Origin: Halomonas sp. H10-9-1
GTDB lineage: Bacteria; Pseudomonadota; Gammaproteobacteria; Pseudomonadales; Halomonadaceae
Assembly (NCBI RefSeq): GCF_040147005.1
Contig: NZ_JAMSHO010000001.1
Location: 2,666,001 to 2,730,000 of the forward strand
Direction of reading: 5' to 3'
Length of the DNA: 64,000 bases
Position numbers and translations under genes: made by a program. A model generated the notes under the pieces. It saw nothing but the letters and a program-made list of their open reading frames with translations. It did no database searches and was not told where the DNA came from. Shown piece after piece: positions 2,941-51,484 of this stretch (positions are counted from its first letter, which is position 1; each line of letters starts with the position of its first letter).

Positions 2941-2944
2941 GCCC

Positions 2945-3424: not shown

Positions 3425-3465
3425 CCCGACCCCCACCCAACCGACAACAAGAGGCGAGGCTTCCG

Positions 3466-5130: not shown

Positions 5131-5140
5131 GGCACGCTGA

Positions 5141-5174
5141 CGCAGCGGGGCCGGCAACTGCCGGCCCCGCTGCG
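5141..5174 (+). terminator. Hairpin downstream of pgi
   Basis: Perfect 16-base arms (5141-5156 and 5159-5174) begin ten bases after the pgi stop, followed by only three Ts. Likely the 3' end of the pyk-mgsA-pgi transcript. Confidence 0.6.
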
Positions 5175-5196
5175 TTTCACGCCGGCCAGCGACAAC

Positions 5197-5222
5197 AAAA
5201 AAACCCGGCCGCGGGGGCCGGG
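5197..5222 (-). terminator. Rho-independent terminator of zwf-pgl-eda
   Basis: On the minus strand CCCGGCC, a 5-base loop and GGCCGGG (5222-5204) are followed by seven Ts (5203-5197). A textbook intrinsic terminator about 60 bases after the eda stop. Confidence 0.85.
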
Positions 5223-5283
5223 GGAAAGGACAGCGGCTGGCTGTCGAGAGAGCACAGGGGTGCGCCCTGCCGGGCGCGGGAAA

Positions 5284-5946
5284 TCAGTGGTGGAAGCGCT
5301 GGGCCGCATCGCGGGCCAGCTGGCGGATGCCGTTCCAGTCCTCGGCCTCCACCAGCGAGTTCGGCGTCAGCCAGGAGCCGCCCACGCACATCACGTTCCT
5401 GAGCGCCAGGTAGTCCTCGGCGTTGTCGAGGTTGATGCCGCCGGTGGGGCAGAAGCGCGCCTCGGGAATCGGCCCGGCGAAGGCCTTGAGCGCCTTGACG
5501 CCGCCGCTGGCCTCGGCGGGGAAGAACTTGAAGCGGCGATAGCCGTACTGCCAGCCGGTCATCAGCTCGGAGACGGTGGCCACGCCGGGGAGCATCGGCA
5601 CCGGGCTCGAGACGCCATAGCGATAGAGCGCCTCGGTGGTGCCCGGGGTGACCACGAAGTCGGCGCCGGCCTGCTCGGCCTTGCGGTACTGGGCCGGCGT
5701 GAGCACGGTGCCCACCCCGATGCTGGCCTGGGGCAGCGCGGCCTTGATGCGGCGGATCGCCTCCAGGGCACAGTCGGTGCGCAGGGTCACCTCGAGCACG
5801 GTCAGCCCCCCTTCGACCAGGGCGGTGGCCAGGGGCACGGCGTCCTCCACGCGCTGGATGGCGAGCACCGGGATCACCTCGGCCTTGAGGCAGATGCTGT
5901 CGAGCTCGGTGGTGCGGGTGGAGGGCAGCTGCTTGTCGATGGTCAT
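5284..5946 (-). CDS. eda: KDPG aldolase (2-dehydro-3-deoxyphosphogluconate aldolase)
   Basis: A 220-residue class I aldolase that splits 2-keto-3-deoxy-6-phosphogluconate into pyruvate and glyceraldehyde 3-phosphate, the last step of the Entner-Doudoroff pathway. Glu52 and Arg56 in LEVTLRT and the Schiff-base Lys140 in RFKFFPAE are present, with the phosphate-binding CPTGGI segment further on. Last gene of the zwf-pgl-eda operon, 18 bases after pgl, and followed by an intrinsic terminator. Some homologues also cleave 4-hydroxy-2-oxoglutarate. Confidence 0.95.
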   Translation of the reverse strand: MTIDKQLPSTRTTELDSICLKAEVIPVLAIQRVEDAVPLATALVEGGLTVLEVTLRTDCALEAIRRIKAALPQASIGVGTVLTPAQYRKAEQAGADFVVTPGTTEALYRYGVSSPVPMLPGVATVSELMTGWQYGYRRFKFFPAEASGGVKALKAFAGPIPEARFCPTGGINLDNAEDYLALRNVMCVGGSWLTPNSLVEAEDWNGIRQLARDAAQRFHH

Positions 5947-5964
5947 TGATGTCTCTCCATGAGA

Positions 5965-6633
5965 TCAGGGGGCCCAGTAGGTGGCCAGGGGGCAGGCGAG
6001 GAAGGCGCGGATCGGCAGTTCGCGGACGTCGTCGCCGGACAGTGCCCGGGCCAGCACGGCGCGCTTGTCGCCGCCGGTGATGTGCAGCACGTGACGGCGG
6101 GCCTGGTGCAGGCGGTCGGCGCTGAGGGTAATGCGCGGCTGGGGCTGGCTGGGGGTGCGCACCGCCACCGCCGCTGCATCGGTGGTCAGCGCCAGGTCGA
6201 GCTCGCGGCTGTCGGGGAACAGCGAGGCGGTATGGCCGTCGCCGCCCATGCCCAGCACCACCACGCTGGCCGGCCAGGCGAGCGGCGCCAGGCGGTCGGC
6301 CACCGCCTCGGCGCCCTGCTCCGGGGTGGGATCCTGGGTGGTCAGCGGCACGAAGGTCGCCTCGGCGGCGGCCCCCTGCAGCAGGTGTTCGCGCACCAGG
6401 CGGGCATTGCTGTCGTCGGCGGACTCGGGCACCCAGCGCTCGTCGGCCAGGGTCACGTCGATGCGCGACCAGGGCAGCGCCATGGCGGCCAGCGCCCGGA
6501 AGAAGGGCACCGGCGTGGAGCCACCGGAGACCACCAGCAGGGCGCGCTCCTGGCGGGCCAGGTCGGTGCGCAGCGCCTCGGCCACGGCCTCGGCCAGCTG
6601 GGTGGCCAGGCGTTCTCGGCAAAGCTCACTCAT
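5965..6633 (-). CDS. pgl: 6-phosphogluconolactonase
   Basis: A 222-residue cytosolic enzyme hydrolysing 6-phosphogluconolactone, the product of Zwf, to 6-phosphogluconate. It belongs to the DevB/SOL family: SGGSTP near residues 36-41, LADERWVP with following DSN, and VLGMGGDGHTASLFP are all visible. Its ribosome site (GAGG) sits in sequence that also encodes the stop of a leftover zwf tail copy, so the ancestral zwf stop probably lay right before pgl. Middle gene of zwf-pgl-eda. Confidence 0.93.
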   Translation of the reverse strand: MSELCRERLATQLAEAVAEALRTDLARQERALLVVSGGSTPVPFFRALAAMALPWSRIDVTLADERWVPESADDSNARLVREHLLQGAAAEATFVPLTTQDPTPEQGAEAVADRLAPLAWPASVVVLGMGGDGHTASLFPDSRELDLALTTDAAAVAVRTPSQPQPRITLSADRLHQARRHVLHITGGDKRAVLARALSGDDVRELPIRAFLACPLATYWAP

Positions 6634-6827
6634 CGTTGGGGGTCCTCAGTAGTCTTCATACCAGCTTCGTCCGTCCTGGGTGATCATGGCGGTCTTGAGA
6701 GAGGCGCCACGGGCCCGGGGGGCCGGTCGCCAGGCTCTAGTAATCTTCATACCAGCTCCGTCCGTCCCGGGTGATCATGGCGGTCTTGAGAGAGGCGCCA
6801 CGGGCCCCGGGGGCCGGTCGCCAGGCT

Positions 6828-8324
<1,497 letters not shown>

Positions 8325-8390
8325 GTGCGCCTCGCTTTTCGTTGGATTACCAAAAAAATACCCACCGAGCGGTCAAAAGGCAAGTTTTTG

Positions 8391-8404
8391 TTGTAAACTT
8401 ACAA
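8391..8404. promoter_or_regulatory. HexR-like operator between zwf and hexR
   Basis: TTGTAAACTTACAA is a perfect palindrome 66 bases upstream of zwf. Near copies lie before gap and pyk, linking the two divergent promoter pairs. HexR of Pseudomonas is known to bind TTGT...ACAA boxes at zwf, edd and gap; the spacing here is shorter than in those sites. Confidence 0.6.
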
Positions 8405-8471
8405 AACAAACGCCCGCCCGACGGGGACGGTTGGCCGCGACCCACCTCCTCGGGCTAGGATAGCCAGCATA

Positions 8472-8491
8472 ATGTAGTTAAATCACTACAT
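8472..8491. promoter_or_regulatory. Second palindrome upstream of hexR
   Basis: ATGTAGT, six bases, ACTACAT: seven-base perfect arms 61 bases before hexR. It shares the TGTA/TACA ends of HexR boxes and may serve hexR autoregulation. No other gene lies in the 228-base zwf-hexR interval. Confidence 0.45.
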
Positions 8492-8552
8492 CATCTATCC
8501 CGGCTAAATCCGCGGCCCACGCCGCCCGCTGTCATGGAGACCCCCGCCCATC

Positions 8553-9422
8553 ATGGCCAGTCACGACCTGCTCGATCGCATTCGCCAACGCCTCGAGGAA
8601 CTCAACCGCTCCGAGCGCAAGGTCGCCGACGTCATCCTCGCCGACCCCGGCGCCGCCACCAGCATGAGCATCGCCACCCTCGCCCAGGCGGCCTCGGTGA
8701 GCGAGCCCACGGTCAACCGCTTCTGCCGCAGCTTCGATGCCAAGGGCTATCCGGACTTCAAGATCAAGCTGGCCCAGAGCCTGGCCGGCGGCACCCCCTA
8801 CGTGAGCCGCGCCGTGGAGCCGGAAGACAGCGCCGCCGACTATACCCAGAAGATCTTCGGCGCCACCATCGCCGCCCTGGACGAGGCGCGCCGCCAGGCC
8901 GACCCCCAGCGCATCGAGCGGGTCGTGGACTACCTGATCCAGGCCAAGCAGGTGCACTTCTTCGGCCTGGGCGCCTCGGGGGCGGTGGCCCAGGACGCCC
9001 AGCACAAGTTCTTCCGCTTCAACCTGCCGGTCACCGCCTACGTGGACGTGCTGATGCAGCGCATGGTGGCCTCGAGCTGCCATACCGGCGACGTGGTGGT
9101 GGTGATCTCCTGGACCGGTCGCACCCGGGAGCTGGTCGACATTGCCCGGCTGGCCCGGGAGAACGGGGCCGTGGTGCTGGGCATCACCGCGCCGGGTTCG
9201 CCGCTGGCCGCCGAGTGCACCGAGACGCTGGAAGTCGCCATCGCCACCCCCGAGGACACCGACCACTACATGCCGATGACCTCGCGGATGATCCAGCTGG
9301 CACTGATCGACGTACTGGCCACCGGGGTGACCCTGCGCCGCGGCGAGGACTTCCTGGGCCACCTCAAGAAGATCAAGGACAGCCTGCTCGATACCCGCTA
9401 CCCGTCCGGCCGGCCGGACTGA
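8553..9422 (+). CDS. hexR: HexR, RpiR-family transcriptional regulator of glucose catabolism
   Basis: A 289-residue regulator with an N-terminal HTH of the RpiR type (about 1-77, including [23 protein letters not shown]) and a C-terminal SIS sugar-phosphate domain (about 128-260, with [17 protein letters not shown]). Family members with this arrangement next to zwf repress zwf, gap and Entner-Doudoroff genes and release DNA on binding 2-keto-3-deoxy-6-phosphogluconate. Here it diverges from zwf with palindromes between, supporting the same role. The effector is inferred from the family. Confidence 0.92.
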
Positions 9423-38333: not shown

Positions 38334-39761
38334 TCAGGCGACAGGTGCGGCCACCGCCTTGAGGGCGCCCTCGCGCACCAGCTCGTCGGTGACGCGATCC
38401 ACGGCGCGGCGGGCGCGGGCGACGATCTCGTCGACCTGGTCGCGGGTGGCGATCAGCGGCGGCGCGAAGCCGAGGATGTCGCCCTGGGGCATGGCGCGGG
38501 CGATCAGGTTCTCGTCGAGAGCCGCGGCGGAGATGCGCGGGCCCACCTTGAGCGCCGGGTCGAAGTGTGCGCGTTTCTCCGGGTTGGCGGAGAACTCCAG
38601 CGCCGCCAGCATGCCCACCCCACGCACGTCGCCGACGATGGGATGGTCGCCGAAGGCGTCGGCCATGGCCTGCTGCAGGTAGGCGCCGGTATCGCGCGAG
38701 TTCTCGGTCAGCCGCTCGCGCTCGATGATCTCGAGATTGGCCAGCGCCGCGGCACAGCCCAGGGCGTGTCCGGAGTAGGTCCAGCCGTGGCCGATGGGGC
38801 CATGCTCGCCGGTGCCCTGCTCCAGCACCTGCCACACGCGGTCACCGACGATGACCCCGGAGAGCGGCTGATAGGCGCTGGTCAGGCCCTTGGCCACGGT
38901 CATCAGGTCGGGCCGGATGGCGTAGTGGTGGCTGCCGAAGTCGGCGCCGATACGCCCGAAGCCGCACACCACCTCGTCGGCGATCAACAGCACGTCGTAC
39001 TTGGTGAGCACCGCCTGGATCGCCTCCCAGTAGCCTTCCGGGGGCGGCACGATGCCGCCGGTACCCAGCACCGGCTCGCCGATGAAGGCGGCCACGGTCT
39101 CCGGGCCCTCGGCCAGGATCATCGCCTCGAGCCTGGCGGCACAGTGAGCCGAGAACTCGCGCTCGCTCATGCCCTCCAGCTCGGCGGCACGCTGGTAGTA
39201 GAACGGCGCCTCGGTGTGCAGGATACCCTCGATGGGCAGGTCGAACTGGTCGTGGAACGCCTTGAGACCGGTGAGCGAGCCGGTGGCCAGGCCCGAGCCG
39301 TGGTAGCCGCGCATGCGCGAGATCACTTTCTTCTTCTGCGGGCGACCGAGCACGTTGTTGTAGTAGCGCACGAGCTTGAGCTGGGTCTCGTTGGCGTCAC
39401 TGCCACCCAGGCCGTAATAGACCTTGGACATGCCGGGCCCGGCGAGCTCGATGATCTTCTCGGAGAGGGCGATCTGCGGCTCGTTGGAGTGGCCCACGTA
39501 GGTGTGGTAGTAGGAGAGCTCCAGGGCCTGCTGGTAGATGGCCTCCGCCACCTCGGTGCGCCCATAGCCGATGTTGACGCAGTACAGGCCTGCGAAGCCG
39601 TCGATGAACTCGCGGCCATCCTTGTCGCGGATGGTGATGCCCTGACCGCCGGTGATCACGCGGCCCGGGGCGTCGCCGTGGGCGAAATCGCGCAGGTGGC
39701 TGGAGGCGTGGAAGGTGACCTTGCGGTCGCGGTCGATCAGGTCCTGGTGCTGCTGGCTCAT
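38334..39761 (-). CDS. doeD: DoeD, diaminobutyrate transaminase
   Basis: A 475-residue class III PLP aminotransferase. It carries YYGLGGSDANETQ, DEVVCGFGRIG and the PLP lysine in TVAKGLTSAYQPLS. In Halomonas elongata DoeD converts L-2,4-diaminobutyrate to aspartate semialdehyde, which DoeC oxidises to aspartate. The frame runs 24 codons further upstream, but MSQQHQD is preferred as family-like start. It lies 213 bases after doeC; the spacer carries an inverted pair of REP-like elements. Related beta-alanine transaminases look alike, so the name rests on context. Confidence 0.88.
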   Translation of the reverse strand: MSQQHQDLIDRDRKVTFHASSHLRDFAHGDAPGRVITGGQGITIRDKDGREFIDGFAGLYCVNIGYGRTEVAEAIYQQALELSYYHTYVGHSNEPQIALSEKIIELAGPGMSKVYYGLGGSDANETQLKLVRYYNNVLGRPQKKKVISRMRGYHGSGLATGSLTGLKAFHDQFDLPIEGILHTEAPFYYQRAAELEGMSEREFSAHCAARLEAMILAEGPETVAAFIGEPVLGTGGIVPPPEGYWEAIQAVLTKYDVLLIADEVVCGFGRIGADFGSHHYAIRPDLMTVAKGLTSAYQPLSGVIVGDRVWQVLEQGTGEHGPIGHGWTYSGHALGCAAALANLEIIERERLTENSRDTGAYLQQAMADAFGDHPIVGDVRGVGMLAALEFSANPEKRAHFDPALKVGPRISAAALDENLIARAMPQGDILGFAPPLIATRDQVDEIVARARRAVDRVTDELVREGALKAVAAPVA

Positions 39762-39847
39762 ATCGTTCTCTCTGTTAGCAAGACTCCCCGGCATCCCGCC
39801 GGGGAGAAGGTACAACGAATCGGTTACAAACAACGGTGACTATCGCT

Positions 39848-39974: not shown

Positions 39975-41474
39975 TCAGCTGCCGGAGACGGAGCCCAGGG
40001 CACCCAGGCAGTAGTACTTGGTCTCCAGGTACTCGTCGATGCCGGTGATGCCGCCCTCGCGGCCCAGGCCCGACTGCTTGACGCCGCCGAAGGGTACCGG
40101 GGGACCGGTCATCTTCACCGAGTTGACGCTGACCATGCCGTACTCCAGGGCCCGCAGCAGCTTCCAGATGCGGCGGATATCGTGGGTGTAGAGGTAGGCC
40201 GCCAGGCCGTACTCGGTGTCGTTGGCCATCTCGATGACCTGGTCGTCGTCGGCGTAGGCGGTGATCCCGGCCACCGGCGCGAAGCTCTCCTCGTGCCAGA
40301 TCTTCATGTCACGGGTCACCCCGGTCAACAGGGTGGGCATGAAGAAGTTCTCGCCCGGCGCCTGGCGCTGGTCGCCGGCCACCAGGGTCGCACCCTTCGC
40401 GATGGCATCATCGACGATGGCCGCGGCCTTCTCCACTGCCTGGCGGTGGATCAGCGGGCCCAGGTCGATCTCGCTGTCCAGGCCATTGCCCACGGTCAGC
40501 GCCGCCATGCGCTCGGCGAAGTGTTCGACGAAGGCGTCATGGATCGACTCGTGGACCAGGATGCGGTCCGCGGCGAGGCAGTCCTGGCCGGCGGTCTGGA
40601 ACTTGGCCGCCACCGCGGCGAAGGCCGCCTCCCGGGGATCCATATCCGGGCCGACGATAAAGGGGGCGTTGCCACCCAGCTCCAGCGAGACGCGCTTGAC
40701 GGTGTTGGCGCTCTGCTCCAGCAGCAGCCGGCCGACCCGGGTGGAGCCGGTGAAGGAGAGCGCCTTGACGCGATCCTCGGCACACAGGATCTTCGACACC
40801 TCGGCGGGCTCGCCCAGCACCACATTGAAGACCCCGGCGGGGATCCCGGCGCGCTCGGCGAGCTCGGCCAGCGCCAGCGCCGAGAACGGGGTCTCGCCGG
40901 CGGGCTTGACGATCACCGGGCAGCCGGCGGCCATGGCGGCGGCGGCCTTGCGGGTGATCATCGCCAGCGGGAAGTTCCACGGGGTGATCAGCGCGGCGAT
41001 GCCCACCGGCTCCTTGATGGTACCCAGGGCGGCGTTGGGGATGTGGCTGGGGATGGTCTCGCCGAAGGTCCGCTTGCCCTCCTCGGCGAACCAGCGCACG
41101 AAGCTGGCGCCATACTCCACCTCGCCGCGGGCGTCGGGCAGCGGCTTGCCCTGCTCCAGGGTCATGATGGTGGCCAGGTCCTCGCGGTTGGCCTGCAGCA
41201 GGTCGTACCAGGCCAGCAGGCGCTCGCAGCGCTCGTCGGCACGCAGGGCGCGCCAGTGCACGAAGGCGGCCTCGGCGGCGTCCACGGCGGCACGAATCTG
41301 GTCCGCCTCGAGCCACGGGATATGCCCGATCACCTCGCCGGTGGCGGGATCGATCACGGCCTCCTCGCGGCCACCGTCGCCGTGGGTCCACTTGCCGTCG
41401 ACATAGGCGTACTGACGGAACAGACGCGGATCGTCGAGCATGGTGGACAGCGTCCTGGACAGCTTCATGTTCAT
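39975..41474 (-). CDS. doeC: DoeC, aspartate-semialdehyde dehydrogenase (succinate-semialdehyde dehydrogenase family)
   Basis: A 499-residue NAD(P)-dependent aldehyde dehydrogenase. The glycine loop SFTGSTRVG, general-base Glu in LELGGNAP, and nucleophile Cys in TAGQDCLAADR are intact. By position among doe genes it oxidises aspartate beta-semialdehyde to aspartate at the end of ectoine catabolism; the sequence also resembles GabD. It follows the large decarboxylase gene after 209 bases with a possible attenuating hairpin, so it may have its own promoter. Confidence 0.88.
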   Translation of the reverse strand: MNMKLSRTLSTMLDDPRLFRQYAYVDGKWTHGDGGREEAVIDPATGEVIGHIPWLEADQIRAAVDAAEAAFVHWRALRADERCERLLAWYDLLQANREDLATIMTLEQGKPLPDARGEVEYGASFVRWFAEEGKRTFGETIPSHIPNAALGTIKEPVGIAALITPWNFPLAMITRKAAAAMAAGCPVIVKPAGETPFSALALAELAERAGIPAGVFNVVLGEPAEVSKILCAEDRVKALSFTGSTRVGRLLLEQSANTVKRVSLELGGNAPFIVGPDMDPREAAFAAVAAKFQTAGQDCLAADRILVHESIHDAFVEHFAERMAALTVGNGLDSEIDLGPLIHRQAVEKAAAIVDDAIAKGATLVAGDQRQAPGENFFMPTLLTGVTRDMKIWHEESFAPVAGITAYADDDQVIEMANDTEYGLAAYLYTHDIRRIWKLLRALEYGMVSVNSVKMTGPPVPFGGVKQSGLGREGGITGIDEYLETKYYCLGALGSVSGS

Positions 41475-41600
41475 GCGGCACCTCCCCTGAGCACTGGCCG
41501 GATTGACGTGGTGGGCCAGTACGAAAGAAACGGGCGAGCCGCCTGCGGGCGGCTCGATGAGGACATGGTAGGGGAGATGGCGCGGCGGGAGTTTTCGTTA

Positions 41601-41639
41601 GCCGACGAGGCGAATGGGCTTTTTTTCGTCCTCGTCGGC
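41601..41639 (-). terminator. Hairpin after the decarboxylase gene
   Basis: Ten-base arms (41601-41610 and 41630-41639) around a 19-base loop that contains seven As on the minus strand. A smaller hairpin lies at 41536-41555. Possible partial terminator between the cassette and doeC. Confidence 0.4.
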
Positions 41640-41683
41640 GTGACGCGAAGTTTTTCTGTGGCCCTCGCGCCTGGCAGGGCGGG

Positions 41684-44464
41684 TCAGCCCGCCGCGGGGT
41701 CGACCAGCGCGGCCTCGGTGAACACCAGCAAGCCCAGCTCCGGGCGGTAGCCATGGATCTCCTTGACGTCCAGGGCCTGCAGGAAGGCGAGGATCTCCTC
41801 GCTGATCACCTGGCCCGGCACCAGCACCGGGAAGCCCGGCGGATAGGGGATCACGAAGCTTGCCGAGACCACGTCGCGCCCGGCGCGCATCTCGGCCTGC
41901 AGCGCACCGTTGTCGAAGCGCAGGTATTCGGTGTTCTCCTCGTCGTAGGCGAGGAAGTAGGCGCGGCGGATGTCGCCCTGGGGCGTGTCGGCGCACTGGC
42001 GGAAGGCGTCGTGGAAGCGGCTGAAGTCGGGCAGCGGCGGCAGCTCCTGGGTCAGGGAGTGTACGCGGTGCTCGATGATCTTGCGCTCCGGCCGACTGCT
42101 CTCCTCCCAGCGCGCCTCGAACTCCTTGGCGAGCTTGATCAGCACGTCGAGCAGGTAGGCGATGGCGCCCCGGGAGGTGCCGATGTTGGTCATGAACAGC
42201 ACGGTGTTGCGCGAGGTCTTATTGATCTGGATGCCGTACTTGTTCATCAGGTACTCGTTCTTGAAGGCGTCGCCGTCCACCCCGGTGGCGCCGATGGCGA
42301 TGGTCACCCGGGTCGGGTCGACCACGAACTCGTCCCGCGCCCAGGCCTCCTCCATCTGGTTCCAGCCGGTCACCGGGTCGTAGTAGGACTCCACCCCCGA
42401 TTCACGGTACTCGGCGGGCACCATGTCGCTGTTCTTGAGCACCCGGAAGTACTTCTGCAGCAGCGGATGGGTGTAGAGCTGCTCGCGCAGCGACAGCGCC
42501 GCCTCCACCTGGGCATGGACCAGCTCGAAGCCCTCCATCTCCGCCTGCATCCGGCCCACGTCCAGCGAGGCGAGGATCTGGTAGTTGGGCGAAGTGGAGG
42601 TGTGGGTCATGTAGGCCTCGTGGAAGGGGGCCTCCACGCGCTGCCGGAAGTCCTGGTCGTAGACGTGGATCATCGAGCCCTGCCGCAGCGAGGTCAGGGT
42701 CTTGTGGGTGGAGTGGGTGGCGTAGGCGCGGATGCGCACCGCGTCGGGGTCCGGCAGCAGCCGGCGCTCCAGCCAGGTGGCGTCGTCGTCCGGGTCGAGG
42801 GCATCGAATTCCGCCTTCCAGGCGGCGTACTCTTCGCGGTAGGCCTCGCTGCGGTAGCGATCGCGCAGGGTGCGCGCGGCATGCATGGCGGTGCGCGGCC
42901 GGTAGGTGGGGTTGAAGCTGGCGAAGGCGAACCACGCCTCGTCCCACAGGAACACCAGGTCGGGCTTGATCGCCAGGCACTCCTCCATCACCCGGCGCAC
43001 GTTGTAGACCACGCCGTCGAAGGTGCAGTTGGTGAGCAGCAGCATCTTGACCTTGTCGAGCTCGCCGGCGCGCTTGTAGGCAAGCAGGGTCTTCTTGATC
43101 TCGTGCAGCGGCACCGCGCCGTACATGGAATAGTCGTTGAGCGGATAGGAGTCCAGGTAGCTGACATGGGCGCCGGCCAGCACCATGCCGTAGTGGTGCG
43201 ACTTGTGGCAGTCGCGGTCGATCAGCACGATGTCGCGGGGCTTGACCAGTGCCTGCACTACGATCTTGTTGGCGGTGGAGGTGCCGTTGGTGACGAAGAA
43301 GCTCTGGCGTGCGCCGAAGGCCCGGGCGGCATACTCCTGGGCCTTCTTGATCGGCCCGAAGGGTTGCAGCAGCGAGTCGAGCCCGCCGGAGGTGGCCGAG
43401 GTCTCGGCCAGGAAGATGTTGATGCCGTAGAAGTCGATCATGTGGCCCGCCCAGTGGGAGCGGGTCACCGACTTGCCCCGCGAGATGGGCATGGCGTGGA
43501 AGACCCCGGTGGGCTTCTTGCTGTACTCGCGCAGGGCATCGAAGAAGGGGGTGCGGTAACGGTTGTCGATGGCCCGCAGGATGGTGTGGTGCTGCTCGAT
43601 GTAGTCGGTCTCGCGGTAGAAGATCCGGTTGAAGTGGCGGATGTCGCGGCTGGCGGTGGCCTCGACGTCGCCGCTGGTGACCAGGAACTGGTCGATCTCC
43701 GGGCGCAGCTCGTGGATCATCGAGCTGAGCAGGATACTGCGGTCGGCCTCGGACTGGTTCTCCAGCTCCTGCTCGGAGAGCCCCTCGAGGTAGTTGCGCA
43801 GCGCGCTCAGGTTGTACTTCGACTTGTAGGGGAACTCGTAGCGGATCAGGCAGGCCTGGATGTTGGGGTTGACCAGCACCGCGATCAGGGCGTCCTCGAA
43901 GCTACGCACCGTGACCACGTCGTAGACGAAGCGATCCTCCGGGCGACGCATGTTGTGGAAGGCCTCGCGCACCACCTCCTCCTCCTGGGGGGAGAGGTTG
44001 TCGACGATCAGCAGCTCGAAGTAGGGCTGGGCCGAGCTGTTGGAGGCCGGGTGGCCGCGGCGCAACTGGTTGAGGGCGTCGAGGGTCTCGAGGTCCTCGG
44101 CATCACCGTCGGTCTCGCTGAGGTCGACGTGACGCCGGCGGTAGGACTCGCTGATCAGCGCCCGAACCAGGCGCTTGACCACCTTCTCCAGCAGCGAGTA
44201 CTCCTCGCGGTCGAACAGCGACCATAGATGCCGGAAGTCCTCCTTGGAGGGAAAGGCTTGGTAGTCCTCGATGATCTCCAGGCGGGTGAGCTTGACGTCG
44301 ATCGCCTTGACCAGGGTCCGCGCCCGGGCAGTGTCGGCGGGCTGCCTGATCAGTTGGCCCAGGTCACGATTCAGAGCGTTCCAGGTATCGGCACGCAGCT
44401 GGGAGATCTTGTGATAGAAGCCCAGGGCGGTGTAGGGCGTCTCGGTAGGACTCGTCTCGTGCAT
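41684..44464 (-). CDS. Large Orn/Lys/Arg-type PLP decarboxylase
   Basis: A 926-residue fold-type I decarboxylase, larger than E. coli lysine or arginine decarboxylases (about 715-755). Residues about 1-330 form an unusual N-terminal region with a wing-like segment (FELLIVDNLSPQEEEVVREAF). The catalytic part has FFVTNGTSTANKIV, DRDCHKSHHYG, DEAWFAF and the PLP Lys588 in THSTHKTLTSLRQ. It would release CO2 from a basic amino acid; ornithine, lysine, arginine or diaminobutyrate are open. It lies between doeC and the C45 gene in the doe cluster, which is not part of the known ectoine route. Confidence 0.85.
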   Translation of the reverse strand: MHETSPTETPYTALGFYHKISQLRADTWNALNRDLGQLIRQPADTARARTLVKAIDVKLTRLEIIEDYQAFPSKEDFRHLWSLFDREEYSLLEKVVKRLVRALISESYRRRHVDLSETDGDAEDLETLDALNQLRRGHPASNSSAQPYFELLIVDNLSPQEEEVVREAFHNMRRPEDRFVYDVVTVRSFEDALIAVLVNPNIQACLIRYEFPYKSKYNLSALRNYLEGLSEQELENQSEADRSILLSSMIHELRPEIDQFLVTSGDVEATASRDIRHFNRIFYRETDYIEQHHTILRAIDNRYRTPFFDALREYSKKPTGVFHAMPISRGKSVTRSHWAGHMIDFYGINIFLAETSATSGGLDSLLQPFGPIKKAQEYAARAFGARQSFFVTNGTSTANKIVVQALVKPRDIVLIDRDCHKSHHYGMVLAGAHVSYLDSYPLNDYSMYGAVPLHEIKKTLLAYKRAGELDKVKMLLLTNCTFDGVVYNVRRVMEECLAIKPDLVFLWDEAWFAFASFNPTYRPRTAMHAARTLRDRYRSEAYREEYAAWKAEFDALDPDDDATWLERRLLPDPDAVRIRAYATHSTHKTLTSLRQGSMIHVYDQDFRQRVEAPFHEAYMTHTSTSPNYQILASLDVGRMQAEMEGFELVHAQVEAALSLREQLYTHPLLQKYFRVLKNSDMVPAEYRESGVESYYDPVTGWNQMEEAWARDEFVVDPTRVTIAIGATGVDGDAFKNEYLMNKYGIQINKTSRNTVLFMTNIGTSRGAIAYLLDVLIKLAKEFEARWEESSRPERKIIEHRVHSLTQELPPLPDFSRFHDAFRQCADTPQGDIRRAYFLAYDEENTEYLRFDNGALQAEMRAGRDVVSASFVIPYPPGFPVLVPGQVISEEILAFLQALDVKEIHGYRPELGLLVFTEAALVDPAAG

Positions 44465-44518
44465 GGCAAAACCCTTGCATGATGGTTGTCGTTGTCATTA
44501 CCGGGTCATCACTGGCGG

Positions 44519-45520
44519 TCACCCGCCGAGCCGTTCGCGTACGCCGTAGCGCACGGTGACCCACTCCTCGGGGAAGTGGTCGAAGCCGAGGTCCAGGTCG
44601 AGGCCCGGCCAGTGGTAGCGCACGCGCCCCTCGGCGGGACGGTAGAACGCGGTATAGACGGTCCCCAGTCCCCGGCGATAGTCGTGGCGAAACAACGGCG
44701 GTGCCTTGAAGGCCGCCTCCAGCCGCGCCACGTCGGTGGCCTCGTCGTCCACCAGTATGGATAGCTGTCGCTCGCGGATCAGGGTCTCCGAAGCCAGGGC
44801 GTGTGCATACCACTCGATCCTCTTCTGATGGTTGGTGGCCACCGGTACCCGGCGGATACTGGCACGCCGGTCCGGGCCGATCATCGCCGTGACGTAGCGT
44901 CCCGCGGCATCGGCCACGGTGATGTTGTAGGCCATGTGGGTGGGCACCCGGGCCAGCACCTCGGCGGCCTCGGGCACCGTATCGCAGAACTCCAGCAGGT
45001 AACGCAGGATGATCGGCGCGCCGAAGCCGTCGCCCACCGCCTTGCGCCCGCCGAAGGCCAGCGACACGGCCAGCCCCCCATCGTTCATACCGTCGAGCAC
45101 CCCCCACAGGCAGTCCGTCATGGCGATCACCCGCCGTTCGTTCCAGCGGGTCAGCAGGATGGAGCCCTCGCACAGCTCCGGCGGGTAGTCGTAGTTGCGC
45201 GCCAGCAGGGTCTCCTCGGCACGCGCCAGCACCGCCTGGGAGCAACCAGTGATATAGGGGGGCGGCTGGTAGAGGCTCAGGAAGCGCGCGGCGAGGTCGC
45301 CGCCGCCCGCCAGGTCGCACAGAGTGCGATAGGTGGGCAGCAGCTCCGGCATGTGCCGCCGCAGGGCGTTGAGGCAGGCCAGGTAGCCGGGGCGCTCGCG
45401 CTCCCCCTCGGCCAGGTACCAGGCCTCGTAGGCGGGCCAGTGGGTGTCGAACAGCGACCGCCACTTGGGCCCCGGCACGGCCTCGCTCAGGCTGCGGAAG
45501 TGCAGCGTCTTGTCATCCAT
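44519..45520 (-). CDS. C45-family Ntn hydrolase (acyltransferase/peptidase)
   Basis: A 333-residue protein of the family of acyl-CoA:6-aminopenicillanate acyltransferase. Such enzymes cut themselves to free an N-terminal nucleophile; here Cys93 in ITGCSQ is the candidate. NYDYPPELCEG and TDCLWGVLDGMNDGGLAVSLAFGG are typical downstream blocks. It could hydrolyse or transfer an acyl group on an amino acid or amine. The ATG at 45520 is chosen over a GTG at 45544. It starts 31 bases after the ATP-grasp gene, between that and the decarboxylase. Substrate unknown. Confidence 0.78.
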   Translation of the reverse strand: MDDKTLHFRSLSEAVPGPKWRSLFDTHWPAYEAWYLAEGERERPGYLACLNALRRHMPELLPTYRTLCDLAGGGDLAARFLSLYQPPPYITGCSQAVLARAEETLLARNYDYPPELCEGSILLTRWNERRVIAMTDCLWGVLDGMNDGGLAVSLAFGGRKAVGDGFGAPIILRYLLEFCDTVPEAAEVLARVPTHMAYNITVADAAGRYVTAMIGPDRRASIRRVPVATNHQKRIEWYAHALASETLIRERQLSILVDDEATDVARLEAAFKAPPLFRHDYRRGLGTVYTAFYRPAEGRVRYHWPGLDLDLGFDHFPEEWVTVRYGVRERLGG

Positions 45521-45551
45521 CACGCATCCAGCCACCAAGGGCACGCCGCCC

Positions 45552-47150
45552 TCACAGGATCTTGAAGTTGCCGCCGCCCACGGCGTGGCTCACGGCGACC
45601 TCCTCCACCACCGGGTCCTGCAGCGACTGCCCGGCGTACTGGCCGCGGATGCCGTCGATCCAGGCCTTGGCGCGCTCGTTGAGCTGGAAGTCGTCGTCCA
45701 TCAGCCGGCCGCGGGTGATCAGGATGCCCAGGTCGGCGCCCTCGTAGCGGAAGTCCCCGGCGCCGCTGATGCGCAGGAAGAAGCCCTCCTGTTCACTCTC
45801 GGCGGCGTGGGGGTGGTAGCTGTAGTGGTCGTAGGTGATGCCGCCGTCGGCGCCCATCCTCCACACCCCGGTGCGCGGCGCGGCGGTCAGCAGATCGACG
45901 CTCTCGTCGGTGTGCTTGATCACCAGCTGGCTCCAGCTGTCGACACTCTCGGGGTGGGACCAGCGCTCGTTGATCTCGTCGATGTCGAGGTCGAAGTCGA
46001 CGTCGGAGAACTCCAGCAGGTGGAACAGGAACAGCGGGATATCGGAGTGGGCGAAGGCGGCCACGTTGGTCAGCGAGCTGGCCCCGGTCACCCGCGGGTT
46101 GAGCTCGCCCAGGTAGACCTCTCCGTTATCCATGTCGATCAGGAAGTCGAGCTCGAAGTAGCCGCGATAGCCCTCCTCGCGCAGCGCCTCGCCGAACTGG
46201 AAGGTGTACTCCCGGGCCTTGTCGCGGATCTCCTGGGTGAAGGCGCCGGCGAACATCTCGTTGCCGCACCAGCCGCCCTTGTAGGGGGTCAGAGACTTGA
46301 AGCCGACCAGCTCGGTCATCAGCGGCCCCACCACGGTGCCGCAGCGGGTGGCGCAGGCCTCGATGGCCGAGCCGCGGCAGTTGATGCGCTTCATGATCTT
46401 GACCTCGGCCTCGGCCTCGATCTCCTCGGCGTGCTTGTAGTAGTCCTCCTCGCTGGCGATGAAGAAGGTGGTGTGGCCGGAGTCGCCGAAGGCGGTCTGC
46501 ACCACCAGGTCGTCACCCAGCTCGCGGCTCACCTCGCAGAGCTCCTGGTAGCTGCCGACCTTCGCCAGCACGTTGGGCACGCTGGGCACGCCGGCCTTGT
46601 TGCCGATGCGCACCGTCTCGATCTTGTTGTCCATGCGGCTGCGCAGCGCCGCCGGCGGGAAGGCGATGCGCAGGCCGAGCTGCTCGCACACCTCCTCAGT
46701 GTGCTCGTCGAACATCAGGAAGGCCGCGGTGCCCGCCTTCTCGCCGTCGGCCCGGGACTGGATGAAGTCGATCACCTCCTTGTGCTCTAGGAGGTAGTTG
46801 TTGATGTCCTCGATGCTCTCGAAGTCGCGGGGAAACTTCTCCTTGGGCACGAAGACGTTGCGCTGCTGCCCCTCGAAGCAGTCGATGTAGTTGATGTGCC
46901 GGAAGTTGCCCACCCAGTCGCCGATGCCGAGCAGGTTGAAGTTGGTCGCCGAGATGAAGTAGATCGGCTCCTTGTTGTTGAGGAAGTGGCGGCGGACGTC
47001 GGCGATGCTGGTGATCTTGTTCATTGTGGTCGCTCCAACGGTGGTGTTTCGGGCGGCATCCGCCGCCACGGCATCTCGGGGGGAGGGGCGTTCCGCGGAG
47101 CCCCCGCGGCCAAGCAGCCGGCACAGGGTGCGCTTCAGGGACTCCAGCAT
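45552..47150 (-). CDS. ATP-grasp ligase (biotin carboxylase-like fold)
   Basis: A 532-residue ATP-grasp enzyme. A pre-ATP-grasp domain (about 43-190) is followed by the nucleotide-binding part with VVQTAFGDSGHTTFF and the metal-binding GELNPRVTGASS. Databases often call such proteins biotin carboxylase, but no carboxyl carrier or transcarboxylase gene is nearby, so amide or peptide-bond formation with ATP is more likely. An internal ATG at 47024 with GGAG is an alternative start; the first 42 residues are low complexity. It follows the amidase gene by 24 bases. Confidence 0.75.
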   Translation of the reverse strand: MLESLKRTLCRLLGRGGSAERPSPRDAVAADAARNTTVGATTMNKITSIADVRRHFLNNKEPIYFISATNFNLLGIGDWVGNFRHINYIDCFEGQQRNVFVPKEKFPRDFESIEDINNYLLEHKEVIDFIQSRADGEKAGTAAFLMFDEHTEEVCEQLGLRIAFPPAALRSRMDNKIETVRIGNKAGVPSVPNVLAKVGSYQELCEVSRELGDDLVVQTAFGDSGHTTFFIASEEDYYKHAEEIEAEAEVKIMKRINCRGSAIEACATRCGTVVGPLMTELVGFKSLTPYKGGWCGNEMFAGAFTQEIRDKAREYTFQFGEALREEGYRGYFELDFLIDMDNGEVYLGELNPRVTGASSLTNVAAFAHSDIPLFLFHLLEFSDVDFDLDIDEINERWSHPESVDSWSQLVIKHTDESVDLLTAAPRTGVWRMGADGGITYDHYSYHPHAAESEQEGFFLRISGAGDFRYEGADLGILITRGRLMDDDFQLNERAKAWIDGIRGQYAGQSLQDPVVEEVAVSHAVGGGNFKIL

Positions 47151-47174
47151 GGCATGGCCCTCCGGGTGGGGATG

Positions 47175-48044
47175 TCAGTACTCCTCGATATCGGCGCGCT
47201 GGGGCTTGGCCAGAGGCCCCAGGGTGTCGAGGAAGGGCGACGACCCGGTCTCGCTGCGGTAGAGCGAGAAGTCGACGGCCCGATCGCGGAAGCTCTTGAG
47301 CGGCTGGCCCAGTCCGCGCAGGCCGGTTTCGCGCTCGCGTCGCACGCGGTTCAGGTCCACCTCGATGGGCATGACCTCTTCGCCGGTGCCCGCCTGGTGG
47401 ATGACGTCCCCGGAGGGGCCGACCACGATGGAGCGGCCGTTGCCGATGGCGCCGGCACCGTTGATATCGAAGAAGTAGCACTGGTTGACCGCGGCATTGG
47501 TGCGCGCGATGGAGAGCTCGATATCGCGGTCGATGGTGTCAGTCATGGTCGGATGCAGGATCACCTCGGCGCCCATGGCAGCCAGGGTGCGGGTGGTCTC
47601 CGGGAACCACATGTCATAGCAGATCGAGACCCCGAAGCGCGCCACGTTGGGCACGTCGAAGACCACGAACTCACTGCCGCTCTCCACCCCCGCCTCATAG
47701 GGCCGGAAGGGGAACATCTTGCGGTAACGGGCCACCACCTGGCCGTGAGGGTTGATCACCGACAGGGTATTGAAGATGCCGTCGTCGGTCTGCTCGAACA
47801 TCGAGCCCGGGATCAACCAGATGCGATGCTGCTCGGCGATCTGGCAGAACAGCTGCTCGGCATGGCTGGGGAACGGCTGGGCATGGTGTGGCGAGGCCCC
47901 CATGGGCATCAGCTCGCTGAACAGGACCATCTGCACCTGGGGAAAACGGCTCATCAGCACGTCGATCCGGTGACGCATGGCCTCGGTATTGTCGCCGTGG
48001 TGGAGAGCATGCATTTGCACCCCGGCAATGGTGAAGTAGGACAT
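47175..48044 (-). CDS. Nitrilase-superfamily carbon-nitrogen hydrolase
   Basis: A 289-residue cytosolic amidase. The catalytic Glu-Lys-Cys triad is visible: Glu in LFSELMP, Lys in YRKMFPF, Cys in ICYDMWFPE. Relatives hydrolyse N-carbamoyl compounds, omega-amides or simple amides. It begins 175 bases after doeX and leads amidase, ATP-grasp, C45 and decarboxylase genes with short spacers, so it probably opens a separate transcription unit or a joint one with doeBX. The ATG at 48044 removes an unlikely 14-residue extension. Confidence 0.85.
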   Translation of the reverse strand: MSYFTIAGVQMHALHHGDNTEAMRHRIDVLMSRFPQVQMVLFSELMPMGASPHHAQPFPSHAEQLFCQIAEQHRIWLIPGSMFEQTDDGIFNTLSVINPHGQVVARYRKMFPFRPYEAGVESGSEFVVFDVPNVARFGVSICYDMWFPETTRTLAAMGAEVILHPTMTDTIDRDIELSIARTNAAVNQCYFFDINGAGAIGNGRSIVVGPSGDVIHQAGTGEEVMPIEVDLNRVRRERETGLRGLGQPLKSFRDRAVDFSLYRSETGSSPFLDTLGPLAKPQRADIEEY

Positions 48045-48219
48045 CGTCGTCTCTCTCGTCAGGCGATCCTGGTATTGCGTGGGCACTGCATCTCGTCCGG
48101 CTATTCGCGGTGCCGGATAGATCGCCCGGCCAGTGGGCTTTCGCCCACCCCATTAGTTACCAGCTTAGCCAGCAGTCGTCCAGCGCCCTTCAACGGTCTA
48201 CTCGCGCAGAGGCGCGGAT

Positions 48220-48696
48220 TCAGCCGACAAAGTCGTCGCGGGAGAAGCCCGGGACGGGGCGCTTGACGCTCTTGGTGACGATATAGGTGAAGTAGCGCTC
48301 GATGCCGGCATCGCCGGTGAGCCAGGCGTCGATCAGGCGCTGGTAGGCATCGATGGAGTCGGCCTCCACCTTGATCAGGTAATCGACGCCACCGCCCACG
48401 GCGACGCACTCGGTGACCTCGGGGGTCTCCTGGACCAGTGCCTCGAAGCGGGCGAAGCTCTCGGCGTTGTGGGCCTTGAGCTCGATCTGCACCCACACCG
48501 GGGTGCGCCGCACCAGCGCCGTGGCGTTGATGCGGGCGCTGTAGCCCTCGATGATGCCGGCCTTCTCCAGGCGGCGCACCCGCTCCCAGCAGGGGCTGAC
48601 CGAGAGGTTGATCGCCTCGGCCAGCCTGGACTTGGTGATGCGGCCGTCATGGGAGAGGATCTCGAGGATCTTCAGGTCGTAGCGGTCGAGTTTCAT
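48220..48696 (-). CDS. doeX: DoeX, Lrp/AsnC-family regulator
   Basis: A 158-residue regulator: N-terminal HTH (about 5-55, ILSHDGRITKSRLAEAINLS and CWERVRRLEKAGII) and C-terminal RAM domain (about 70-150) that binds amino-acid effectors. In Halomonas elongata DoeX binds upstream of doeA and responds to ectoine breakdown intermediates such as alpha-acetyl-diaminobutyrate or diaminobutyrate in relatives. It starts 16 bases after doeB, in one transcript. Whether it also controls the four-gene cassette downstream is open. Confidence 0.88.
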   Translation of the reverse strand: MKLDRYDLKILEILSHDGRITKSRLAEAINLSVSPCWERVRRLEKAGIIEGYSARINATALVRRTPVWVQIELKAHNAESFARFEALVQETPEVTECVAVGGGVDYLIKVEADSIDAYQRLIDAWLTGDAGIERYFTYIVTKSVKRPVPGFSRDDFVG

Positions 48697-48712: not shown

Positions 48713-49726
48713 TCAACCCAGGGAGTCGACGATATCGGCGATCACCGCGATGGTGTCGCCCATGTTGACCAGCGCCGGATGGCGCCTTGCCGCCAGCACG
48801 CCGCCGCGCGCCGCGCGGTACTCCACCGGGGCAGTGCCGCTACGGGTCATGTCGTAGACCCGGGCCACCACCTCGCCCTTCTCGACCCGCTCGCCCAGGG
48901 CGTGGCAGAGCTCCAGCACGCCGGAGTGTTCGCTCTGCACGTAGCAGCTGGCATCGGGCATGTCGAGGTAGACCTGGGGCTCGGCCGGCATCTCCACCTC
49001 GCCCTGGAGCAGGCCATAGTGGATCAGGAAGTTGCGCACGCCGCGCTCGGTGATGGCCATGCTCTCCGGGGTGGAGGTGCCGCCGCCGCCGAGCTCGGTG
49101 GCCACGAAGACCTTGCCCTGGCTCTCCACCGCGGTGTCGAACAGCGCGGCGGCGTCGAGTTCGAACATCATCATGGCGTAGGGGGCGCCGAAGGCCTTGG
49201 CGCCCTCCAGGGCCTGGCGCTGCTGCTCGGGGTCGTCGAGCACGTGGGAGGCGCCGAAGGGGATGATGTCCAGGGTGCGCCCGCCGGAGTGCAGGTCGAG
49301 CACCACGTCGCACATCGGCACCATCACCCGGGTGAAGTAGTCGGCGATCTTCTCGGTCACGCTGCCGTCGGGGTCGCCGGGGAAGCTGCGATTGAGGTTG
49401 CCACCGTCGAGCCCCGAGGTACGCTTGCCGGCCATCACCGCAGGGGTGTTCATGCAGGGCACGATGATCACCCGGCCCGTGACCTCCTCGGCCTTGAGCT
49501 CGCTCGACAGCTTGAGCAACGAGGTGATGCCCTCGTACTCGTCGCCGTGGTTGCCGCCGGTGAGCAGCGCGGTGGGGCCCTCGCCGTTCCTGACCACGGT
49601 GACCGGGATCATCACCGCCCCCCAGGCGGAGTCGTCCACCGAGATGGGCAGCTTGAGGAAGCCGTGCTGGACGCCATCGGCGTCGAAGTCGACGGTGGCG
49701 CTGATGGGGCTGGGACGCTTGGTCAT
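48713..49726 (-). CDS. doeB: DoeB, N-alpha-acetyl-L-2,4-diaminobutyrate deacetylase
   Basis: A 337-residue zinc deacylase of the AstE/AspA (M14-like) family. The metal ligands are in GGNHGDEYEG (His and Glu) and VLDLHSGGRTLD (His). It removes acetate from the N-acetyl-diaminobutyrate made by DoeA. The frame is open 68 codons upstream, but MTKRPSPIS follows AAGGAG at the right distance. doeX follows after 16 bases; upstream lies a 282-base spacer with a large inverted repeat separating it from doeA. Confidence 0.92.
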   Translation of the reverse strand: MTKRPSPISATVDFDADGVQHGFLKLPISVDDSAWGAVMIPVTVVRNGEGPTALLTGGNHGDEYEGITSLLKLSSELKAEEVTGRVIIVPCMNTPAVMAGKRTSGLDGGNLNRSFPGDPDGSVTEKIADYFTRVMVPMCDVVLDLHSGGRTLDIIPFGASHVLDDPEQQRQALEGAKAFGAPYAMMMFELDAAALFDTAVESQGKVFVATELGGGGTSTPESMAITERGVRNFLIHYGLLQGEVEMPAEPQVYLDMPDASCYVQSEHSGVLELCHALGERVEKGEVVARVYDMTRSGTAPVEYRAARGGVLAARRHPALVNMGDTIAVIADIVDSLG

Positions 49727-49790
49727 GGTGTACCACTCCTTGTTCTCATATGGCATCGGCATGGTGGGCTTGATGCCACTCGGGGCTGAT

Positions 49791-49966
49791 CTGGCGGCAG
49801 ATCTTCGAGGGGGCGCTGTTAACCCATCCATGGGCGCTACCGACGCCCTGCGGCGCTCTCGCATCCTGCTCCGCTTGCAGGACCGGTGCTGGCCATCCTT
49901 GGCCAGCCCGTTCGGAGCAGTGCTCCTCACCCCTGGCGTAGGACCCCCTCTACGATCTGCCGCCAG
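49791..49966. repeat. Nested inverted-repeat element between doeA and doeB
   Basis: CTGGCGGCAGATC (49791-49803) recurs as its exact reverse complement at 49954-49966. Inside are further matched arms CTGCTCCG (49866-49873) with CGGAGCAG (49913-49920), and GCTGGCC (49888-49894) with GGCCAGC (49901-49907). The whole can fold as a long interrupted hairpin; no coding sequence is seen in it. Confidence 0.65.
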
Positions 49967-50008: not shown

Positions 50009-51208
50009 TCAGCGCACGAAGAGCTGACGCGGGAAGTCGGCCAGGGTCTCGCAACCGGTCTCGGTGATCAGGATGCTCTCGGTGATCTCCAGGCCCCAGT
50101 CGTCCTCCCACAGGCCCGGCATGAAGTGGAAGGTCATGCCCGGCTGCAGGATGGTCTCGTCGGAGGGACGCAGGCTCATGGTGCGCTCGCCCCAGTCCGG
50201 CGGATAGCTGATGCCGATGGGGTAGCCGCAGCGGGCGCCGCCGCGGTCGAAGCCGTACTTGTCCATGGCGGCCCCCAGCGCCATGGCGATGTCCGCGGTG
50301 CGGTTGCCCGGCTTGGCCACCGCCAGGCCGTTCTCGATGCCCTCGAGCAGCGCCGACTCGGCGCGCACGAACTCCACCGGCGGCCGGCCCAGGAAGACCG
50401 TCCGTGACATCGGCGCATGGTAGCGCTTGTAGACTCCGGCGATCTCGAAGAAGGTCCCCTCCCCCTGGCGAAACGGCGTGTCGTCCCAGGTCAGGTGGGG
50501 CGCGGCAGCGTCCTTGCCGGTGGGCAGCATCGGTACGATGGCCGGATAGTCGCCGCCGAACACCTGGCCGCGCTCGTCGCGCCACCCCTCGATCGCCACC
50601 CGGTAGATCTCCGAGACCAGCTTGCTCTTGGGCAGACCGGGCTCGATCACCTCGAGGATCCGCGAGTGCATCCCCTCGACGATCTTCGCCGCCACGCGCA
50701 TGTACTCGATCTCCTGGGGGGACTTGATGGCACGGCACCAGTTGACCAGGCCATTGGCATCCATGAAGCGCGCGTGGGGCAGCTCGCGCAGCAGGCTCTG
50801 GTAGGCCTTGGCCGAGAAGTAGTAGTTGTCCATCTCCATGCCCACCACGCCCTGGTGCCAGCCGCGATCGGGCATGATCGACTGGGCCAGGTACTCCATG
50901 GGGTGCATGTCGGGATTCTGGACGTAATAGTCCGGGTAGTAGGTGATGTTGTCCGCATCGATCCAGCAGGTGCGCAACGCCCCGTTGGCATCCATGCGCC
51001 GGCCATACCACACCGGCTCACCCTCCAGACCGACCAGCACGCACTGGTGCACATAGAACGACCAGCCGTCATAGCCGGTGAGCCAGGCCATGTTGGAGGG
51101 GTCGCTGACGATCAGCACATCGATACCCCGACTCGCCATCTCGGCGCGGACCTTCCACAGCCGGGTGGCATATTCCTCACGAGTGAAGGGCAGGTTTACC
51201 TGGGTCAT
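50009..51208 (-). CDS. doeA: DoeA, ectoine hydrolase
   Basis: A 399-residue cytosolic hydrolase of the creatinase/Xaa-Pro peptidase (M24) family, the same length as Halomonas elongata DoeA. It opens the ectoine ring to N-acetyl-L-2,4-diaminobutyrate. The N-terminal creatinase-like domain covers about 1-150, with SDPSNMAWLTGYDGWSFYVHQ as landmark, and the pita-bread domain follows with FEIAGVYKRYHAPMSRTVF. First gene of the doe cluster; it diverges from ghrA across 276 bases. ATG at 51208 preferred to a TTG five codons upstream. Confidence 0.93.
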   Translation of the reverse strand: MTQVNLPFTREEYATRLWKVRAEMASRGIDVLIVSDPSNMAWLTGYDGWSFYVHQCVLVGLEGEPVWYGRRMDANGALRTCWIDADNITYYPDYYVQNPDMHPMEYLAQSIMPDRGWHQGVVGMEMDNYYFSAKAYQSLLRELPHARFMDANGLVNWCRAIKSPQEIEYMRVAAKIVEGMHSRILEVIEPGLPKSKLVSEIYRVAIEGWRDERGQVFGGDYPAIVPMLPTGKDAAAPHLTWDDTPFRQGEGTFFEIAGVYKRYHAPMSRTVFLGRPPVEFVRAESALLEGIENGLAVAKPGNRTADIAMALGAAMDKYGFDRGGARCGYPIGISYPPDWGERTMSLRPSDETILQPGMTFHFMPGLWEDDWGLEITESILITETGCETLADFPRQLFVR

Positions 51209-51484
51209 TGGGCCACTCGCCAAAGCAACATCAAGAAAATGGCCCTCTCGACGAGGAGAAGGCCGGGGCCAGGGTCACGATCACTGTCGAATGCCTGAAC
51301 GGCCACGAACCACGGGCCGCTCAGTTGCACCAGGCAGTGGGGAGGACTCCCATAGCGGGAGGTTACTGCCAACCCACGGTAGCTGGTCAAGCATTTCCTG
51401 ATGAGAAAGATGCCGGGGCCACGGGCTTGTTCGCGAGACCCAGGCCCGGGATGATGGATCCATCGCGCGCCCCCAGGAGGAAAC

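Follow-up and report, generated by a model that had tools for sequence, protein, structure and literature searches.

In Halomonas sp. H10-9-1, the minus strand of the window, a stretch of 64,000 nucleotides from contig NZ_JAMSHO010000001.1, carries doeA, doeB, doeX, four further enzyme genes, doeC and doeD in this order. The four genes (positions 41684–48044) encode a nitrilase-superfamily amidase (NIT), an ATP-grasp enzyme (GRASP), a putatively autoproteolytic N-terminal nucleophile (Ntn) acyltransferase/hydrolase (C45) and a pyridoxal phosphate (PLP) decarboxylase (DEC). An initial annotation of this DNA had placed four enzyme genes in one direction between doeX and doeC with spacers of 24, 31 and 54 bases, which is correct to the base for NIT-GRASP, GRASP-C45 and C45-DEC, respectively. 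The margins are 175 bases to doeX and 209 bases to doeC, and all four open reading frames (ORFs) are intact, with ATG start codons at 48044, 47150, 45520 and 44464 (Table 1). The four genes form a real conserved module, which ectoine breakdown does not require. As a tentative explanation, which we favor at somewhat less than even chances, this self-contained and patchily distributed module may lie outside the ectoine route and serve to use carbon of the glutamate or 4-aminobutyrate (GABA) type via an amide intermediate.

Conservation and genomic position of the cassette

Genome contigs were scanned with the ATP-grasp protein, which yielded 109 confirmed loci; 80 of these were kept (here and below, L and G numbers denote loci and genomes). 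All four genes were present in the same order in 79 of the 80 loci, and the sole exception (L075) reaches the contig edge before DEC. The initial annotation had made its idea of a cassette depend on recurrence of the gene set in other genomes, and the set does recur. All five doe genes were likewise present in 66 of the 80 loci. Linked doe genes were not seen in eight of the 79 four-gene loci, from Marinobacter, Oleiphilaceae and Vreelandella massiliensis (L062, L063, L065, L067, L072, L073, L074 and L076; L072 is too short to judge the linkage). Four of these eight hold a distant DoeA relative (24–27%), and distant relatives of doe proteins (24–33% identity) were observed near some cassettes.

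Wider counts at the level of phylum, class and Halomonadaceae rest on the ATP-grasp gene rather than on all four genes. In the phylum search, strong matches were obtained in 11 of 398 genomes, eight of them over the cut-off, and 196 other genomes gave weak matches only (at most 50.6 bits). Strong matches were further obtained in 10 of 385 genomes in the class of G083, in 8 of 274 genomes in the class of the window and in 32 plasmid records, 23 of which have one place covering at least 80% of the protein. Among 35 loci from these wider searches, two of which duplicate the places L053 and L074, C45 was found in 32, DEC in 29 and NIT in 20. Some of these absences trace to a contig end (L160), to short loci (L136, L143) or, in L113, to insertion sequences that interrupt the copy. 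Five loci without a recognized NIT gene (L116, L117, L118, L156 and L177) have an amidase gene from a different family. In Marinobacter, Rhodobacterales and Cupriavidus, the cassette occurs without linked doe genes, and rhizobia have a three-gene form with the order DEC-GRASP-C45.

On rhizobial plasmids, the three-gene form has nif genes (L113, L118) or a cluster for ribosomally synthesized and post-translationally modified peptides (L117) in its vicinity. In L116–L118, genes for a peptide-type transporter, an amidase, an RpiR regulator and a serine hydrolase stand beside it, and in L113 a C45 fragment is directly followed by insertion sequences. A second ATP-grasp copy, partial and in tandem with the first, is apparently present on the plasmid of Rhizobium leguminosarum CB782 (L114, 12001–14632).

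Within Halomonadaceae, the cassette is linked to doeABX. Of 121 genomes, 103 contain DoeA, 30 the ATP-grasp gene and 29 both (one-sided Fisher test, P 0.03). In 28 of these 29 genomes no more than 3.2 kb separate doeA and the ATP-grasp gene, and in the remaining one (G1105; L175/L176) the distance is 10 kb and the cassette adjoins doeCD. No promoter-like site was found in 41300–48400. By a script test, terminator-like elements were present in 35 of 69 DEC-doeC gaps versus 2 of 70 doeX-NIT gaps in relatives, a weak hint that the cassette may be co-read with doeABX and end before doeC. Close linkage and the joint expression that so few terminator-like sites would permit speak for the idea of the initial annotation that the genes serve ectoine users as a side branch or for salvage, starting from diaminobutyrate. 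However, 74 of the 103 genomes with DoeA have no ATP-grasp gene, G1039 has the ATP-grasp gene and no DoeA, and the cassettes of other lineages have no doe genes in their neighborhood, where the neighbors point to GABA, glutamate and arginine instead. We regard a special tie to diaminobutyrate as very unlikely, with a small probability left for a diaminobutyrate branch confined to Halomonas.

As the initial annotation had also claimed, the known ectoine route does not need the four enzymes, and a requirement of the cassette for ectoine use was rejected on the basis of the genome counts and of empty doeX-doeC sites. Among seven cassette-free doe loci (L169–L174 and L178), doeX and doeC are adjacent with gaps of less than 300 bases in four (L169–L172). 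The gaps measure 1.1 kb in L174 (G1020) and 1.6 kb in L178 (G1012) and include stretches without stop codons (302 and 342 codons), and L173 (G050, 2313–9345) has about 7 kb between doeX and doeC that contain an AAA ATPase, a DUF6638 protein and other ORFs. In H. hydrothermalis Y2, a diguanylate cyclase gene stands beside doeX (PMC6815383), and the doeX-doeC junction seems to accept other inserts too. The doe cluster of H. elongata has the same flanking genes in the same order as the window, but doeX adjoins doeC with no cassette in between. According to PMC3187862, doeABCD were assigned via mutants, the four enzymes are not needed and no doeX-doeC transcript was obtained by reverse transcription PCR. 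Given the DoeA genomes without the ATP-grasp gene, the loci with adjacent doeX and doeC and the case of H. elongata, the gene set looks like a passenger at this junction.

Table 1. Cassette genes, flanking doe genes and a terminator-like hairpin in the window (positions counted from its first nucleotide).
Feature	Position	Strand	Product or description	Family match
NIT	47175..48044	-	nitrilase-superfamily amidase, 289 aa	CN_hydrolase PF00795
GRASP	45552..47150	-	ATP-grasp enzyme, 532 aa	PRK06524/NF005096, 757 bits (cut-off 684)
C45	44519..45520	-	putatively autoproteolytic Ntn acyltransferase/hydrolase, 333 aa	AAT PF03417, NF040521
DEC	41684..44464	-	fold-type I PLP decarboxylase, Rv2531c-like, 926 aa	OKR_DC_1 PF01276
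doeA (flank)	50009..51223	-	ectoine hydrolase	TIGR02993, 658 bits (cut-off 613)
doeB (flank)	48713..49930	-	deacetylase	TIGR02994, 492 bits (cut-off 403)
doeX (flank)	48220..48696	-	Lrp/AsnC regulator	
doeC (flank)	39975..41474	-	aldehyde dehydrogenase, succinate-semialdehyde dehydrogenase-like	TIGR01780, 602 bits (below cut-off 646)
doeD (flank)	38334..39833	-	class III aminotransferase	PF00202
Hairpin	41535..41556	-	terminator-like, between DEC and doeC, 9 pairs, 8 GC	

The TIGR02994 match covers residues 72–398 of DoeB, and the true start of doeB probably lies within the ORF given in Table 1.

Active sites of the four enzymes

The Glu-Lys-Cys triad of the nitrilase superfamily is invariant in NIT (E58, K123 and C156 in the numbering of the longer ORF 47175–48086; 23/23 aligned sequences). 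GRASP has the fold and the E-x-N motif of the ATP-grasp superfamily, and the residues K176, K251, E349, N351, P352 and R353 were invariant in 28 of 28 aligned sequences. The fold of the AlphaFold2 model (mean pLDDT 86.6) yielded a near-tie between biotin carboxylase, PurK, PylC and glycinamide ribonucleotide synthetase, and was rejected as a guide to the substrate class. By its name in the NCBI database, PRK06524, GRASP would be a biotin carboxylase-like enzyme, and the module might carboxylate a substrate. In biotin carboxylase, a Glu-His pair after the sequence RIQV has a role in bicarbonate chemistry. The alignment shows RVTGAS in this place of GRASP, without the Glu-His pair. The identification as biotin carboxylase was rejected on account of this motif, and we give a carboxylating function very little probability. 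The window positions 47025–47150 encode the first 42 residues of GRASP, an N-terminal extension of the gammaproteobacterial proteins that looks amphipathic and is of low confidence in the model; many relatives align only from residue 35–39 onward.

In C45, the Gly-Cys cleavage site with the nucleophilic cysteine is kept in 32 of 32 sequences, and Cys101 corresponds in position to residue 1 of penicillin V acylases. The nearest fold is that of isopenicillin N acyltransferase (2x1c), which shares the Gly-Cys pair at only 14% identity and does not fix the substrate class of C45.

DEC matches the Mycobacterium protein Rv2531c (9n0n) with 821 bits over residues 12–921 and has the same 900-residue architecture. 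The PLP-binding lysine and the core motifs of ornithine/lysine/arginine (OKR) decarboxylases are present: the Halomonas DEC keeps STHK, DEAW and CHKS, and all 24 representative DEC sequences have the HK of STHK, SMHK or SIHK as well as CHKS and DEAW. The glutamate of the VEKTG sequence of the basic amino acid decarboxylases AdiA and LdcI is replaced by Asn748 in DEC, which reads NKT at this site in the alignments. The same asparagine was found in 105 of 105 DEC sequences, mostly close relatives, in 24 of 24 representatives and in Rv2531c, which reads INKTS. We take the glutamate of VEKTG to be a residue of the substrate pocket, for which we found no paper in confirmation. If it is, DEC would not be a standard basic amino acid decarboxylase, and the asparagine makes a basic amino acid a doubtful substrate. 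Asparagine at this position would fit a neutral, amide-bearing side chain. An active-site channel with a negatively charged patch has been described (PMC4832331). Identity of DEC with the Sinorhizobium meliloti decarboxylases SMa0680 and SMa0682 could not be shown, and these were not used.

Genes of GABA, arginine and glutamate metabolism near the cassette

Linkage to gabT was analyzed in 22 genomes from outside Halomonadaceae that carry the ATP-grasp gene. True GabT, defined as scoring over the TIGR00700 cut-off, was found at 13 places in 11 genomes. Six of the 13 places are no more than 11 kb away from the ATP-grasp gene, where 0.07 would be expected (P about 2e-10, assuming, as for the ureohydrolases below, independent and evenly placed genes), and the respective genomes belong to five families (G007, G568, G889, G339, G083 and G995). 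At a limit of 6 kb two of the 13 places were counted (P about 9e-4), at 20 kb six (P about 6e-9), and at 11 kb with one genome per family five (P about 2e-8). None of 44 places with weaker class III aminotransferases below the cut-off was within 11 kb. On a plasmid of Roseobacter ponti, gabT is likewise near the cassette. GabD is encoded beside GabT in L156 and L158, and DoeC is 47–49% identical to these cassette-side GabD proteins; between DoeD and GabT of L158 the identity is only 29%.

On three plasmids (L112, L144 and L145) from Shinella, Sinorhizobium sp. RAC02 and a strain labelled Roseateles, GRASP and C45 stand without DEC inside an arginine-to-GABA operon. It comprises genes for an amino acid permease, a universal stress protein, a ureohydrolase, 2-ketoarginine decarboxylase, an aldehyde dehydrogenase, D-amino acid dehydrogenase, a racemase and RidA, and NIT and an Lrp regulator are divergent from it. 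Judging from this enzyme set, GABA would be formed there from guanidinobutyrate, so that DEC may be dispensable while GRASP and C45 are retained. Across the 22 genomes, three of 80 ureohydrolase places, seven of which were entered by hand after the list had been screened for cassette-near places, were within 11 kb of GRASP (G738, G490 and G465; 0.43 expected, P 0.0099). The one ureohydrolase gene in the genome of the window (L188, 9193–10143) scores above the agmatinase cut-off and lies some 407 kb away from the cassette.

In the Puu pathway of gamma-glutamylated putrescine, an amide made with ATP by a glutamine-synthetase-like ligase is later cut by PuuD to yield GABA. The cassette resembles this pathway in the proposed formation of an amide with ATP and its subsequent cleavage to GABA, and in the GABA transaminase nearby. 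It differs in having an ATP-grasp enzyme for the glutamine-synthetase-like ligase, the Ntn enzyme C45 for PuuD, an added decarboxylase and no PuuB or PuuC. A Puu-style route from arginine or ornithine to GABA could start with formation of agmatine or a diamine by DEC and addition of a glutamate cap by GRASP; oxidases of the host would convert the capped amine before C45 cuts off the cap and frees GABA. Such a route would agree with the three ureohydrolase neighbors, the three arginine operons, the membership of DEC in the OKR family and its DEAW motif, which matches arginine decarboxylase, while lysine decarboxylase has DSAW. It is at odds with the asparagine in all DEC sequences, with the lack of DEC in the arginine operons and with a cassette devoid of oxidases and dehydrogenases. 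FAD oxidase and aldehyde dehydrogenase genes are no part of the four-gene set; within the annotated part of the flanks, (semi)aldehyde dehydrogenase genes lie near it in L112, L144, L145, L156 and L158. We consider this route rather doubtful, although in probability it is not far behind the use of glutamate- or GABA-type carbon that we favor.

Genes of glutamate metabolism nearby encode glutamate dehydrogenase (L113, L114, L116 and L117), an ORF with the ACT domain of glutamate dehydrogenase upstream of DEC (L153), PutA (L155) and FMN-binding glutamate synthase family proteins (L111 and L121). Further recurrent neighbors are tripartite ATP-independent periplasmic (TRAP)-type permeases (L119, L121, L123, L151 and L160; DctM in L121, the others by similarity), which we read as being of the TAXI type, peptide-type ATP-binding cassette (ABC) transporters (L111, L114 and L116–L118) and an ABC ATPase that is a possible exporter (L113, L114, L117 and L118). 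If C45 acted as an acyltransferase and not as a hydrolase, the module might synthesize an amide-linked small molecule, such as a solute, a signal or a secreted conjugate. Apart from the possible exporter, however, the recurrent neighbors are of the uptake type (TRAP permeases, peptide-type ABC transporters) or catabolic (gabT, gabD, PutA), and we judge such a biosynthetic role to be improbable. In single loci, C45 adjoins a gene for ketopantoate hydroxymethyltransferase (PanB; L146, 860–1765, in an incomplete genome) or for malic enzyme (L151).

A possible route via an amide intermediate

In the use of glutamate- or GABA-type carbon that we propose, GRASP would spend ATP to join the side-chain carboxylate of glutamate, or GABA, to an amine. 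DEC would then remove the alpha-carboxylate of the tethered glutamate to give a 4-aminobutyryl amide, and the N-terminal cysteine of C45 would release or transfer the 4-aminobutyryl group. NIT, or the amidase-signature enzyme in some loci without NIT, may clear a side amide, and GabT and GabD would consume the freed GABA. In Halomonas, DoeD and DoeC occupy the place held elsewhere by GabT and GabD, so that a four-carbon omega-amino acid may be the common thread, and this scheme would be the simplest one without redox steps. We infer the substrates, the order and the direction of these steps, as well as transfer of the module between lineages. The initial annotation had suggested decarboxylation of a basic amino acid, ATP-driven amide formation, acyl release and amide hydrolysis; the active sites needed for this logic are kept, whereas the basic amino acid is doubtful.

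Assembly of the butirosin 4-amino-2-hydroxybutyrate side chain by BtrJ, BtrK and BtrH involves ligation of glutamate by an ATP-grasp enzyme, PLP-dependent decarboxylation of the tethered glutamate and acyl transfer. The proposed steps of the cassette would resemble this scheme, but the butirosin decarboxylase and transferase belong to other families, and a gene for a carrier protein cannot fit into the spacers of 24, 31 and 54 bases or the margins of 175 and 209 bases. Carrier-free tethered decarboxylation, in which the ATP-grasp enzyme tethers glutamate by its side chain to a small amine and the Rv2531c-type enzyme decarboxylates it before a self-cleaving C45 frees GABA and the amine is recycled, is an unlikely version of the route.

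Several observations weigh against the use of glutamate- or GABA-type carbon. None of the cassette members has a known substrate, and Rv2531c, the nearest solved relative, has no known activity; to our knowledge, the OKR-family enzymes of known substrate all act on basic amino acids, and formation of amides rather than carboxylation by GRASP is presumed. The limit of 11 kb was picked after the distances had been seen, 11 of the 22 genomes lack a GabT that passes the cut-off, and five of the 11 genomes with GabT show no linkage within 11 kb. In the genome of the window itself, 234 kb separate the cassette from the best GabT match (51%). The ureohydrolase neighbors would fit arginine as well, the glutamate-related neighbors were picked by eye without a control from partly annotated flanks, and L152 holds a lone, divergent ATP-grasp gene without C45, DEC or NIT.

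In the literature searched, which was limited to open-licence papers, no description of the four-gene set was found; the single families are known, and the four-gene combination and its GABA linkage appear to be new. In 28 of 121 sampled genomes of Halomonadaceae, a group used for industrial ectoine, the module stands no more than 3.2 kb from doeA and could be mistaken for a part of the ectoine route. For these proteins, the database names 'biotin carboxylase' and 'ornithine/lysine/arginine decarboxylase' are potentially misleading. The module links three groups of enzymes without assigned substrates, the PRK06524 ATP-grasp proteins, this clade of C45 and the Rv2531c-like decarboxylases, into one testable pathway. 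If true, tethered decarboxylation would provide the first substrate for the PRK06524 ATP-grasp family and for the Rv2531c-like decarboxylases of the cassette.

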